Source of the DNA: Saccoglossus kowalevskii
Taxonomy: Eukaryota; Hemichordata; Enteropneusta; Harrimaniidae
Direction of reading: 5' to 3'
DNA: 46,634 nucleotides
Assembly: GCF_000003605.2 (NCBI RefSeq)
Contig: NW_003141819.1
Coordinates: 100,335-146,968 of the forward strand
The notes beneath the pieces are model-generated. The model was not told where the DNA came from. It did no database searches and saw only the letters and a program-made list of their open reading frames with translations. Position numbers and translations under genes: made by a program. Numbering within the stretch: the stretch's first letter is position 1; the number at the start of each line of letters is the position of its first letter. Of this stretch, positions 14,073 to 23,000 are shown piece after piece.

Positions 14073-17000
14073 CTACGTTGCTCCATGAGTTTGTGGCTGT
14101 ACTTGAGTCTCTGACTGCTCTCTTATATGTTTCTCTATCTGTAAACAATCAAAAAAAGCCCCATTTATTACCTGATAACTAAGTATGAAAGTGCAGGAGA
14201 TCATTCGTTTGATAATATTTGGCTGCCATATTATTACATAACACCAAATAATCGCACACAATTACTATTGTTTCAGTCATTCTTTGAACGATTATGTTTT
14301 ACTAAATATTGCTACACTACAGCAAGTTATTATCAACATTGTCGGTAAATGTACAGCAATTGCTTCCAATGTTGTTGAAGTTGTTTTGCTACAATAAAGT
14401 TTGTTTTGATAAATTTGGACGCACCCAGACTTCAAGTCGCCATCATTGGACCCACAACGCATTTCAACTCGGACCTGATCAGACTGTCAGTCATGGCAGA
14501 ATACTTATTCAAAGTAGAGTTTGTTTATTATCGGGATACAAGAATTATACCAATATATATATATATATCACAAGCTGAGTTTTATAGTGATGACTTTGAT
14601 TACAACAGTTTTATCGACCGCCTCACTAGCGAGACACCATTTTTACAGCGAATGAACGCACTTTGCGTTCAAATTATGGACGAAGAAAATCAGAAATTGG
14701 ATTTACCGACAAACAATCGATTCAAACAGTTGGTTATCGACAATCTTCGTTCAACTACACCAGGAGGCATAATAAAGGCAAAACTATTCATTCTGGGTGG
14801 TTCAACAACTATGATGAAACAGAATGAAAACCAACCGTGTGACCAACTGCCGGCTTATCTACTGAAGCCGGTAAAATATCAAAGCGGATAAAACTAGACT
14901 TTCACTTGGACACACACATGGTTGCTAGATCCTCTATGGACTCAGACAATTTTTTGCATATATTATACGCAGTAGATTTCGTCACACCAACCCTTTTCGC
15001 TATGTCAGCAAAAGATATTCCTTCTAAATACAGCTCAACTATCTTTTCGCAAATCGCAGGTGGAGTCGGGAATCCCTGTTTACTGCACTGTGAATGTCAC
15101 AGTCAACGAGTGCGTGATTGGACAGTGGAGCAGCGACTTGAAGTCTGGGTGTGTCGCGAATGTATAAAAACAAACTTTATTGTAGCAAAACAACTTCAAC
15201 AACATTGGAAGCAATTGCTGTACATTTACCGACAATGTTGATAATAACTTGCTGTAGTGTAGCAATATTTAGTAAAACATAATCGTTCAAAGAATGACTG
15301 AAACAATAGTAACAGCATAACTTTAATCTTGAACTACTGTTAGCTATGCCCTGTTTAAGTAAAAATGGTCAAACATTTTACCATAAAGACAAGACAAAAT
15401 GTGAAGGTACTACTCCCTGTGATTCAGATATCATTTTAAATAATAACCAACAGGGTTGTAACTTTACCAATGTTTATTTTTCATCACTGAACTGTGTTCA
15501 CAATAGTTGGCCCTCACATATGGTGGACGGGACCCATCCAAAAAGAATTATAATACAAGTCATCACTTGACATGACACGAGTATGTCCATATGCCTTATA
15601 CTCACAATTTTCCTAACATGATTAAGGGTACCTTCCTTTCCTTTACAATTCTCCAGGCCATATGGAGGTGATATAGTGACTTCATCCATAACTATAATAC
15701 TCTTGTCGTGCCACCGACATTTTAATCTGTGAATAGAATCAGTAAGAAACAAAATTCATTCCACATACTCCAATGGTCTGCTATCTATAAGGTGGGGTGC
15801 ACACATTCGAATGGGAACATGGGCATGTTTGTTTCACTTACGTTTTATATAGAGTGTTAAATAATTTCTGTGCTTCGGGAGTAACGTCAACTCCTATTGA
15901 AAATACAGCATTTTTCTTGGCATCCACCTCATGGTTGCACCGAAAATTCAACTACAAAATAAATAATTTATTGAATATTATTAATTAAACTCTGATATCA
16001 ACACTTATGTTATCAGAAAACAATGATGTCATCACATATCAGGATTGATGTCAGCCAAGTGGGCTGCATTATGGGAGTAATAGTACCACGGTTACCCAGG
16101 GTTCTCCCCAGAGCTTGTTAGCGCCAAGGTCCGGGGGGCTATACTTGTGAATCTCTGAGCTTCACTTGGAACCTCTGCACTATGTTTTCCGACCTTGGCG
16201 CTTGATTTCACATTTGATATGCCAATATCAGATGTGCAAAAGCTTTGTTTACCACACTGGTTAGCCCCAACCGTCACTCAAAATTAGTGACCAGTCCAAC
16301 TATTGTCCGATTGTTATTATAATTACGTACCGACCGACACGCATCCTGCCAGTCGTGGATTATAATTTGTAAACAATAATAGACCTAGTCGCACGATACG
16401 TAGCGGCTAGTCAAATTTGTGAAATTAGCACCTCTTTGTTTGTAAGTAAATACTATCTGCGATAGACACAGTCTTTAGATCGAAAGCTAAAATTCTTTCA
16501 AAATCAATTCCACCTCGATATAACATGGTCAAAGCGGAGTTCACGATCAGTTTACGCTACTCAAAAACGTGTTTATTGCGCGAATTGGTAAAATACATTT
16601 GAACTGTTATCATCGCGAATCATGTAAAAACTCTTCTTTCAAGACTTCTTTTACCTTTTAAAAATTGCTAATCGCCTCTTTCAAAAACCATCATGCAGTT
16701 TTCAATCGATGCCAACACATCGTGCTATGACATGCTTAACTTCCGCAATGTAATTTTTATAATTACTACCATTCGGAAAACTTCGGATTCTACCGGCATT
16801 ACCATGCAGCATTTTGATTGGTTAATGGCATTCTCGACCCATCGGGTCAAAGGACACATGCTAATGTTTCACAAACATCATGGCGGGTCTGTTTTTTTTT
16901 TTACCAAAGCAATTGAGTGATCAAAACTAATCGCTCCCAATAAAAATAAGTCGGATTTTACTTTAATTTCATATCAAAAAAAAAGAAGTAACATTTATTG

Positions 17001-20000: not shown

Positions 20001-23000
20001 TTAAAATCGGAAAATTTACCATCATGCAAAGCGATACCTCATTGTATGACTTCACTTTGACTTCAAATTTGGGCAACCACAACGTAAACAAACATGTAAA
20101 CAAAATTATCACTATGAAATTTGAGTTTTTTAACGATGATGCACATCAAAACCAGCGTACCAACTCATAAACATCCAGTTCATACAATGTAAAGATTAAT
20201 ATCGGGAATTATATTCATCTTCTAGTTTTAATAGGGAAAAAACTTCGCGTACCAACATGCTGACATCGCTAAACAAATCTTGCCAGAATGGCGTCGTTCA
20301 TGTTAACGTGAACGATCGAAAAACCTGTGATATTTTTGATTCTTGGGGGTTCATAACAGTTCAAGTCAACTAGACAACAACTAATGACTTTATTCTATGC
20401 AAAAGTATATAACAATGCTTCAATGCTTGTATATAAATGATTTTTTTAGCACAGAATTCAGTACATTGTCATTTCAAAACATTTCCATTTACGATCTAAA
20501 AAGCATCCATAAAAGTCGCTCAATTTAACATTAATAAAATGCGGTGTGACAAATAACAAATCACCCCACCAATTTTTAAGGATATGTTTCGTTCATAAAA
20601 TGTCAAAATCAAAGACAAATATTGGTTTCGCGCCGAGAAGTATGGTAAATAAAATAGAGTTCATTTCAATCACCCTAAAATCAAAAACGACAAAAATCTG
20701 GGTAAAAGTATGAACATTTGTTGCAAAAATGTGTCGCTGCTGGTAAAATAGATGAATTGGAGAACTACTCGCCGGCTAAAATATGACCTTATACAGATAT
20801 CCTGATTCTAAAATTATTTTAAAAAAAACAAATTCTGGAATAAAAAACTAAGTTGTAAAAAAATACATAACACTGACAATGTAAAAAATAGTGGCCGGCT
20901 GCGTACTGATCACGTGACAATGCTTTGCCCAACCCCGCAATGCGCCTTTGCCAGGGAAGGAGGCCAATTCACACCTAATACAATGACCGTTTCCAGACCG
21001 AGGACAGAGGGACTGTGATTATTGCAACACTTAGGTTTGGTTCAGTAGTATTTTAAACCATTTTATTATTCAATATACCAGGAGGAATTGACCAGAACAG
21101 GATGATCAGTAGGGCATTGGTGGCCATCTTGAATTTATGCAATTACTCATTTTCCCCACACTTTTTTGAAATTATATCGTGGCTCATTAAATGTTTTAAC
21201 ACTCCCATATTATTCAAAACAGCCTGGGTCCAATAAAAGAGTTACATGATTCAACACATAATTATTCTAATCATCACAATGATAGATCACAGATACATGA
21301 AATAATAGTTGTGTACAACAGATTGGCAATATGCAAATGAGTCAGTCATCTAACCATAACAGTAGTTTGAAATTGAGGGGCATGTTACCATGAAGTTTAG
21401 CTCAACGTACTCACCAAAGCATTAAAAGCATACAAAAAAATATTTAAGAAACTGTTTGGTAGCATTATTTATTTGTATGCAAATTAGCTGTGGCCATTAC
21501 ATCAACATTATAATTCTTTATGTTATTTACTTTCTTCCATCACAGACCGACAAACCAACACTTGCACTAGTTGTACAAATCTATCATGAAAACTATGTCA
21601 CGTTGTATGTATGTAGTTCAACTGTGATTATGTTCTAGCAATAACCCAAGACTATTATACAATATAAAATAAAAAAAACCTTACCTACTGAGTAGTTGTT
21701 TAGCAAATTACCAGAAACACTATATTTATTATATTTGCCCTACAGTGTATGTAACAGAAAATTCATCAAAATACGACTCTGAAACTTGAGCCACAAAACC
21801 ACATCTAGCATAATTGTAGCCAGATCACAGACAAACCAATAAGCAAATGTAGGTTAGTCCTCAGACCACTAAAAAAGTGTTCCGAGGTTAGCCATGTTCT
21901 ACCGTGGTAACTGATAATTATAAGAACAATTGTTGTGATTTGTTAGAGCTATATTTCATTTTGTGAAATCCAGGTCAAGAGTGTTACAGCAATTCCAGGC
22001 ACTGATTTGACGCTGAAGTAGTGCTAGATGTTGATAACTTACTACAATAGGTTACATACTTTGTTTTCAAATTTATACAAGTTGTAACTAGAAATATAAA
22101 CATCGGCTGCAAATCAGAGGAATGATTGACAGATATTGCCCACAATGTTTTCTATTTTTGCTACAAAGTCAGGTACACCTAGACTTTGAGGCGCGTCTGT
22201 CTTTCATTCACTTTTGGTCGGTCATCATGTCGATTGCGTGTTTTCGTGGACTGTCATTTGCTGAGATTGGAGATCGAAATGGTGTTTCAAAGCAGACAGC
22301 TTGAACTTTATAATATCGTCAAACGGTTTGTCACCATCAAGAGTATCCTGCCAGGAAACTGACAACGTTATAGACTATGTCGAATATTATAAAACATTGC
22401 AACCGCACATTTACGGACGGGAAATTTGACAAAAACTACTTGTGTACGGCGGCAATCTTCCCCGGACGTGTGATCGTGTGTTGCCAGTGATAAGCTTTTT
22501 AAAGCGATTATTTGGTGGCACATCGAACTCTTGGTTCTCATCGTCGAGAACTAATAATCGAATAACACCCCTTCTATGTATTCAATTTCATTATTGATAT
22601 AGAGAATGAAGTCTTCATAGGACATTTGTTGCAGGCGTGATACGTATATTTCCATAGTAGGAATAATGCACTTTGAACAATAATTCTGTCATGATCAGTT
22701 GGTCAGCTGGTTCTGTAAAATAACTTTGTTTACAGTGCCACCACTTTATGCGCCCCTCTCACTGAAATAACATGCGACGCAAATTGAAGTACGAAACTAA
22801 GCCAAATTGCAGACATGCTGTCTGCATTATTTGTAACAACTTCTGTAAATTTCAAAACAAAGTGTGTAACCTATTGTAGAAAGTTATCAACATCTAGCAC
22901 TACTTCAGCGTCAAATTAGTGCCTGGAAATGCTGTAAAACATGTTACGAATTTGGGAAAAAATAAAAACTTAACAGAAAAACTAAAGAGAACGATCAAGT

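Follow-up and report, generated by a model that had tools for sequence, protein, structure and literature searches.

Two internally deleted Tc1-like elements of Saccoglossus kowalevskii and the second, convergent gene of their probable parent

The stretch of Saccoglossus kowalevskii DNA analysed here (46,634 nucleotides of contig NW_003141819.1, hereafter the window; C3284:100335-146968 in the 572-Mb assembly that was searched) contains two short elements, E1 and E2 (Table 1), which very probably are non-autonomous, internal-deletion derivatives of a DNA transposon of the Tc1/mariner type with two convergent genes. In such a parent, the first gene would run inward from one terminal inverted repeat (TIR) and encode a transposase composed of a paired-like helix-turn-helix (HTH) and a DDE_3 domain. 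The second would run inward from the opposite TIR and encode an N-terminal piece referred to here as 'PB1-like', used as a label only, followed by a basic KRRRLD stretch, a coiled-coil-like segment (judged by eye), a Cys/His-rich motif and, probably, a long C-terminal part. Separate internal deletions in E1 and E2 would have left the TIRs and both 5' ends, and any movement of the deleted copies would have depended on transposase provided in trans. The second protein may have aided transposition or its regulation.

Deleted copies in the window and their transposase-bearing relatives

An earlier note on this DNA had described two TA-flanked elements with unrelated-looking terminal repeats, and both elements are real. 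Their limits were taken from reading the sequence, and both end in C beside TA. The TIRs of E1 match over 180 bp at 97.2% identity (14262-14440 vs 15133-15312) and those of E2 over 108 bp at 91.7% identity (21981-22088 vs 22833-22940); the best DNA match between E1 and E2 (blastn) spans 25 bp (E 0.003), and the two are otherwise unrelated. In both of them a piece of the HTH protein and a piece of the second protein enter from opposite ends. The statement that both encode the same two proteins holds for this convergent pair of pieces, but not for intact genes. In E1, the open reading frame (ORF) of the second gene is open, but the HTH frame has stops close upstream and no ATG ahead of the HTH. 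In E2, the second-gene piece is split into three pieces in two reading frames with stops between them (C3284:122793-123026, E 1.4e-4, 4 stops, with the E1 protein as query). Furthermore, E2 lacks two stretches of ~86 bp each, both present in 7/7 measurable siblings (8 asked), and one of them carries the start codon of the HTH gene in the sibling copies. Neither window copy can now encode both proteins.

Table 1. Features of the two elements (positions in the window)
Feature	Coordinates	Strand	Remarks
E1, internally deleted (non-autonomous) Tc1-like element	14265..15309	.	TA at 14263-14264 and 15310-15311
E1 left TIR	14265..14440	+	176 bp
E1 right TIR	15133..15309	-	
E1 second-gene 5' part ('PB1-like' ORF)	14493..14891	+	132 aa; shortened compared with L065 and C2391
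E1 transposase N-terminal HTH remnant	14905..15087	-	no start codon, stops short of DDE domain; HTH_23 E 7e-7
E2, separately deleted Tc1-like element, other TIR family	21987..22934	.	TA at 21985-21986 and 22935-22936
E2 left TIR	21987..22088	+	
E2 right TIR	22833..22934	-	
E2 HTH remnant	22233..22338	+	start region lost, frame broken
E2 transposase remnant just past HTH	22376..22426	+	59% to L009 over 17 residues, E 9e-4; ends before DDE domain
E2 second-gene 5' part	22459..22692	-	pieces 22692-22633, 22625-22560 and 22551-22459; middle piece in another frame

Of the two stretches missing from E2, one lies at the start of the HTH and the other between the right TIR and the beginning of the second gene; by eye they are dissimilar. 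The second-gene ORF of E1 contains an AT microsatellite (14553-14568, read as IYIYI) whose length differs among copies and which appears to cause the frame breaks of several of them.

A mitochondrial COX1 in the assembly reads TGA as Trp, and its protein has an animal-like look. Match counts in the genome are lower bounds, and one place may yield several matches. The E1 interior gave 28 matches, the E1 left TIR 41 and E2 193, and the second-gene protein of E1 gave 72 at E <= 1 (E1 itself being one, E2's included, and some places giving several). With these matches, the similarity between the second-gene pieces of E1 and E2 goes beyond chance. There are eight E1-type copies including that of the window, one of them without a part, and the E2 type occupies dozens of places. 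Three loci align to E1 at full length in a single piece (L003, L005, L007) and four in pieces or with gaps (L002, L004, L006, L021); some of the fetched loci are the same place twice (e.g. L007/L061).

That neither element shows a DDE/D transposase is true of E1 and E2 themselves, but not of their relatives, and the search for a longer copy with a transposase, proposed in the earlier note, was successful. In L009 (C1007), an E1 TIR and the second-gene start are followed, on the opposite strand, by the HTH and a 297-aa open frame that matches DDE_3 (PF13358; E 4.1e-18, 66.1 bits, cut-off 28.6) and the end of the paired domain (PAX, 2.5e-5), so that a DDE domain is directly seen beside the HTH. 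Against solved structures, the transposase matches Pax/paired domains (E 0.001-0.03), with two further matches at E >= 1. The continuity from the HTH to the DDE domain is established piece by piece, without one unbroken copy: in L025, C2391 and L015 the HTH shares one frame with the next ~40-60 transposase residues, in L009 the residues just after the HTH share the frame of the DDE domain, and in the more distant L028 (46%) HTH and DDE domain lie in a single frame with one stop. In L009 and L011 the remainder of the transposase is offset from the HTH frame in the same way, at a point where L025, C2391 and L015 read through; this common offset may be an inherited frameshift, a frame-jump site being less likely. 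The transposase of L012 is also broken.

E1 has its TIRs in common with these longer copies (L009, L011, L012) and lacks the catalytic domain, as a non-autonomous derivative does, and the suggestion of a non-autonomous family has stood up. The deletion end points differ visibly from copy to copy. Among the loci with E1 TIRs, L001-L007 and L021 kept the HTH and the 5' end of the second gene (L008 and L022 partially), L011 and L012 kept the HTH and the transposase residues to ~119 but no second gene, L010 kept transposase residues 205-271 and the second-gene start but no HTH, and L017, L019 and L020 are shorter still. E2-type copies kept both 5' ends with another deletion end point. In E2's sibling L069, the stretch just beyond the HTH is in the same frame as the HTH. 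The case for E2 being non-autonomous is based on its own and its siblings' short transposase remnants and on L085, described below; E2 probably had a transposase-bearing parent with E2 TIRs. Given the convergent geometry of two genes, an internal deletion leaves the TIRs and both 5' ends, and hence the pair in which an HTH faces a 'PB1-like' piece. The elements first described as lacking a catalytic domain are thus ordinary, gutted copies.

As to superfamily, TIRs and a TA target-site duplication as in IS630-Tc1-mariner were found, read at occupied sites only; TA lies beyond the terminal C in 51/59 motif hits from three TIR families (duplicate loci removed beforehand, window E1 counted twice). 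A DDE_3-type catalytic domain is present in L009 and absent from E1 and E2, and the paired-like HTH joined to it was found piecewise (HTH_23 and PAX matches; L025, C2391, L015, L009 and L028). The parent would be a member of Tc1/mariner by its transposase, TIRs and TA flanks, and would work as a two-gene cut-and-paste transposon. On the same count of ends (window E1 again counted twice), TTA stands directly outside the terminal C in 50/59 hits, which suggests a TTAA target instead of TA alone; this may correspond to a TA duplication within TTAA, although other readings of these occupied sites are possible.

The second gene

The 'PB1-like' piece of L065 runs on in frame, across two stops, into KRRRLD, the coiled-coil-like segment, a proline-rich stretch and the Cys/His motif, so that the longer second gene can be read directly. 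L083 is similar, with a frame change within the Cys/His part. Across three sequences this part has 30 invariant columns, which take in five cysteines, three histidines and the sequence RLDKHRE without its first and last neighbours. C2391 contains a further C-terminal part on the same strand, open for 258 aa in L034, which probably belongs to the second gene, and in C4661 this C-terminal part lies 2.6 kb from the Cys/His part. In L085 (C1343), TIRs not being among the sequence read for this locus, the Cys/His extension follows an N-terminus that resembles that of E2, with 86% to L070 across 35 residues. The Cys/His part has 11 genome matches at E <= 0.1, fewer than the N-terminal piece, as expected if many copies are deleted.

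The convergent arrangement is seen in an element of 3139 bp (C2391:5656-8794, TIRs of 156 bp at 94%), in which transposase pieces (+) and second-gene pieces (-) stand tail to tail; the element is decayed, and its second-gene N-terminal piece is without its ~12 first residues. In L025, pieces of both genes lie inside TIRs of 158 bp that are 98.7% identical. Elements of at least three TIR families (E1, E2 and C2391 types) have the second gene in this same convergent position. The single transposase ORF that is usual for, although not defining of, IS630-Tc1-mariner was not what was found, as C2391, L025 and L009 carry second-gene pieces.

The order FKV...DEENQ...NNRFK in the N-terminus of the second gene recalls, by eye, a PB1 domain, and the earlier note had proposed a PB1-type module. 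This found no support. Pfam did not match PB1 in the E1 protein, and its PB1 profile matched 0/12 second-gene family members (alignment A1), in which ten other families appeared weakly, the best being PPP1R21_helical (E 0.002, in 2 members). Across the genome PF00564 matched 2 places, neither among the second-gene match places, and a profile search of PDB sequences with the second gene left PB1 unsupported. In hhalign, the alignment to a PB1 set of six manually entered sequences had a probability of 0.16 and a score of 5.8, which must be seen against 17.3 for the best of 100 column shuffles and 11.6 for the reversed profile. By these three lines of sequence comparison, Pfam, the PDB-sequence profile search and profile-profile alignment, membership in PB1 is not supported. 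PB1 proteins such as NBR1, the one whose sequence was checked, and p62 resemble the second gene by eye in having an FKV-like first strand, then a helix and then a DDENQ/DEDG stretch, but the profiles give no support for kinship.

In the other scanned pieces of the second gene, Pfam gave no family above its cut-off; the Cys/His part has only a sub-threshold match to MDFI (E 0.007, 16.8 bits, cut-off 27), and the 258-aa C-terminal frame of L034 matches no Pfam family. Among relatives sought in IMG/VR, 32 stretches fit a pattern and 0 were confirmed.

Selection, alternative explanations and weak points

Codon positions were compared for the N-terminal piece of the second gene only, with each place used once in pools; pairs share reference copies, and the ratios stand without a significance test. 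Within the deleted families the changes are near-neutral. The differences at positions 1/2/3 are 0.109/0.086/0.075 in the E1 family (6 copies vs the window copy, 764 codon pairs), with a ratio of nonsynonymous to synonymous change (dN/dS) of 1.12, and 0.116/0.104/0.100 in the E2 family (12 copies vs L070, 1049 codon pairs), with a dN/dS of 0.74. Between families, third positions are in excess (0.258/0.206/0.554 for L067 vs 9 E2-family copies, 670 codon pairs; 0.455/0.316/0.615 for L064 vs E1, L070 and L067, 244 codon pairs), and dS either exceeds 2 or is saturated. For the N-terminal piece, dN/dS is again near 1 in recent pairs of the longer copies (1.11 for L065/L064, 1.04 for L065/L025, 1.22 for L067/L083 and 0.75 for L065/C2391). 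In the parts beyond it, values were 0.29 (middle) and 0.68 (Cys/His) for L065/C2391, 0.87-1.02 for L034/C2391 (C-terminal part) and 0.13 for L065/L085 (Cys/His part). From the third-position excess between families and the near-equal positions within them, the second gene was thus constrained ancestrally, and the constraint was relaxed in recent copies, whether or not these carry a deletion. The claim that both genes were selected across the family agrees with the comparison between families but not with that among the deleted copies, as far as the second-gene piece is concerned.

A tentative and rather doubtful extension is that an animal Tc1/mariner lineage moves with an obligatory convergent second protein, whose N-terminal domain and coiled coil would serve in oligomerisation and whose Cys/His motif would bind DNA or another partner. 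A two-component accessory system, one of the possibilities first raised, is conceivable for the longer parents (C2391, L065, L083) but not for E1 and E2. The opposite view, that the second gene is a captured passenger without a role in transposition, is unlikely, although Pfam gave no family above cut-off for the scanned pieces, the MDFI match mentioned above being sub-threshold. A passenger would not be expected to show the third-position excess between TIR families, nor does its recurrence in one convergent position in at least three of them fit well. A host homologue was sought only by genome searches with the E1 protein and the Cys/His part.

It is very improbable that the short form, HTH plus 'PB1-like' piece, was selected in its own right, as a two-component element or trans-acting repressor working without a catalytic domain. 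E1 and E2, with their unrelated-looking TIRs, did arrive at one and the same pairing of 5' ends, and each form was amplified. However, the window copies are unable to encode both proteins, the second-gene piece is broken by stops or frame changes in 6/6 E1 siblings (L002-L007), and in each family the three codon positions have changed to a similar extent, with a dN/dS near 1 indicated in part. Deletion geometry alone would leave the pair, and other deletions in the E1 TIR family (L010, L011, L012) kept other parts. A new superfamily without a DDE/D transposase, as the two window copies viewed in isolation could suggest, can be dismissed almost entirely, since the genome search gave L009 with an E1 TIR, this same HTH and then a DDE_3 frame, and L025 and C2391 agree.

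Derivation of E1 and E2 by internal deletion of a two-gene Tc1/mariner parent must nevertheless be weighed against several points. An intact two-gene copy was not found. Nor does any copy of these TIR families read without a break from the HTH through the whole DDE domain: the frame of L009 changes between HTH and DDE domain, and those of L025 and C2391 change ahead of the DDE domain. The right TIR of L009 was not detected, its stretch holding 372 N, and C2391 carries 503 N in the 4.9 kb read. Among the fetched loci there is no transposase with E2 TIRs. By profile, 25/30 transposase loci are without the second gene, many of them being unbounded fragments and some one place twice. In L031, the ~700 bp between an E1-like TIR end and the transposase hold only a weak, non-significant second-gene match (E 0.13). 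In addition, the dN/dS of 0.74 within the E2 family is below 1, from pairs that share one reference copy and without a significance test, and the C-terminal part (L034, C2391) is assigned to the second gene by its position and strand.

The match in L031 (769-873, plus) sits in the expected place and strand, and is possibly a decayed second gene.

Relation to known transposons

The parent resembles the Tc1/mariner elements of animals in its TIRs, TA flanks, paired-like HTH and DDE_3 domain. Long TIRs also occur in this group, e.g. in Minos (PMC7325037). According to PMC7325037, PMC8533490 and PMC10379824, Tc1 elements usually, or as a rule, carry one transposase ORF only, whereas the longer copies here carry a second, convergent gene. 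DD37E/L18, Mosquito and DD38E/Intruder are examples of named families; the transposase described here is placed at superfamily level only. The second gene was not found in the literature searched, and since Repbase and subscription papers were outside its scope, it may be described there. The term 'PB1 domain' occurred, among the matches listed, only in a general review of transposable elements (PMC8616336, 3 mentions).

Multi-ORF Tc1/mariner elements are known from ciliates, namely Tec, TBE, Sardine, Thon and Anchois (PMC7325037, PMC3464196), of which Anchois lacks a tyrosine recombinase but carries two ORFs that are hypothetical (PMC3464196). Like the parent proposed here, the ciliate elements combine a Tc1-type DDE transposase with further ORFs. 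They differ in their hosts and in the recombinase ORF of Tec, Sardine and Thon, the comparison being by description only. Besides these, PIF/Harbinger, Mutator (MuDR) and En/Spm are cut-and-paste transposons with a transposase and a separate accessory protein, but they belong to other transposase superfamilies and their accessory proteins are different.

Tc1/mariner is usually seen as a single-protein system and has yielded laboratory tools, Sleeping Beauty among them. If the second protein were obligatory, a superfamily usually deemed single-protein in animals would include two-protein transposons. The conservation of the second gene over several TIR families would provide a natural case of a Tc1-type transposase that works with, or is controlled by, a partner. 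Taken together, what remains of interest is an animal Tc1/mariner lineage with a second protein gene on which, from its pattern of codon change, selection once acted.

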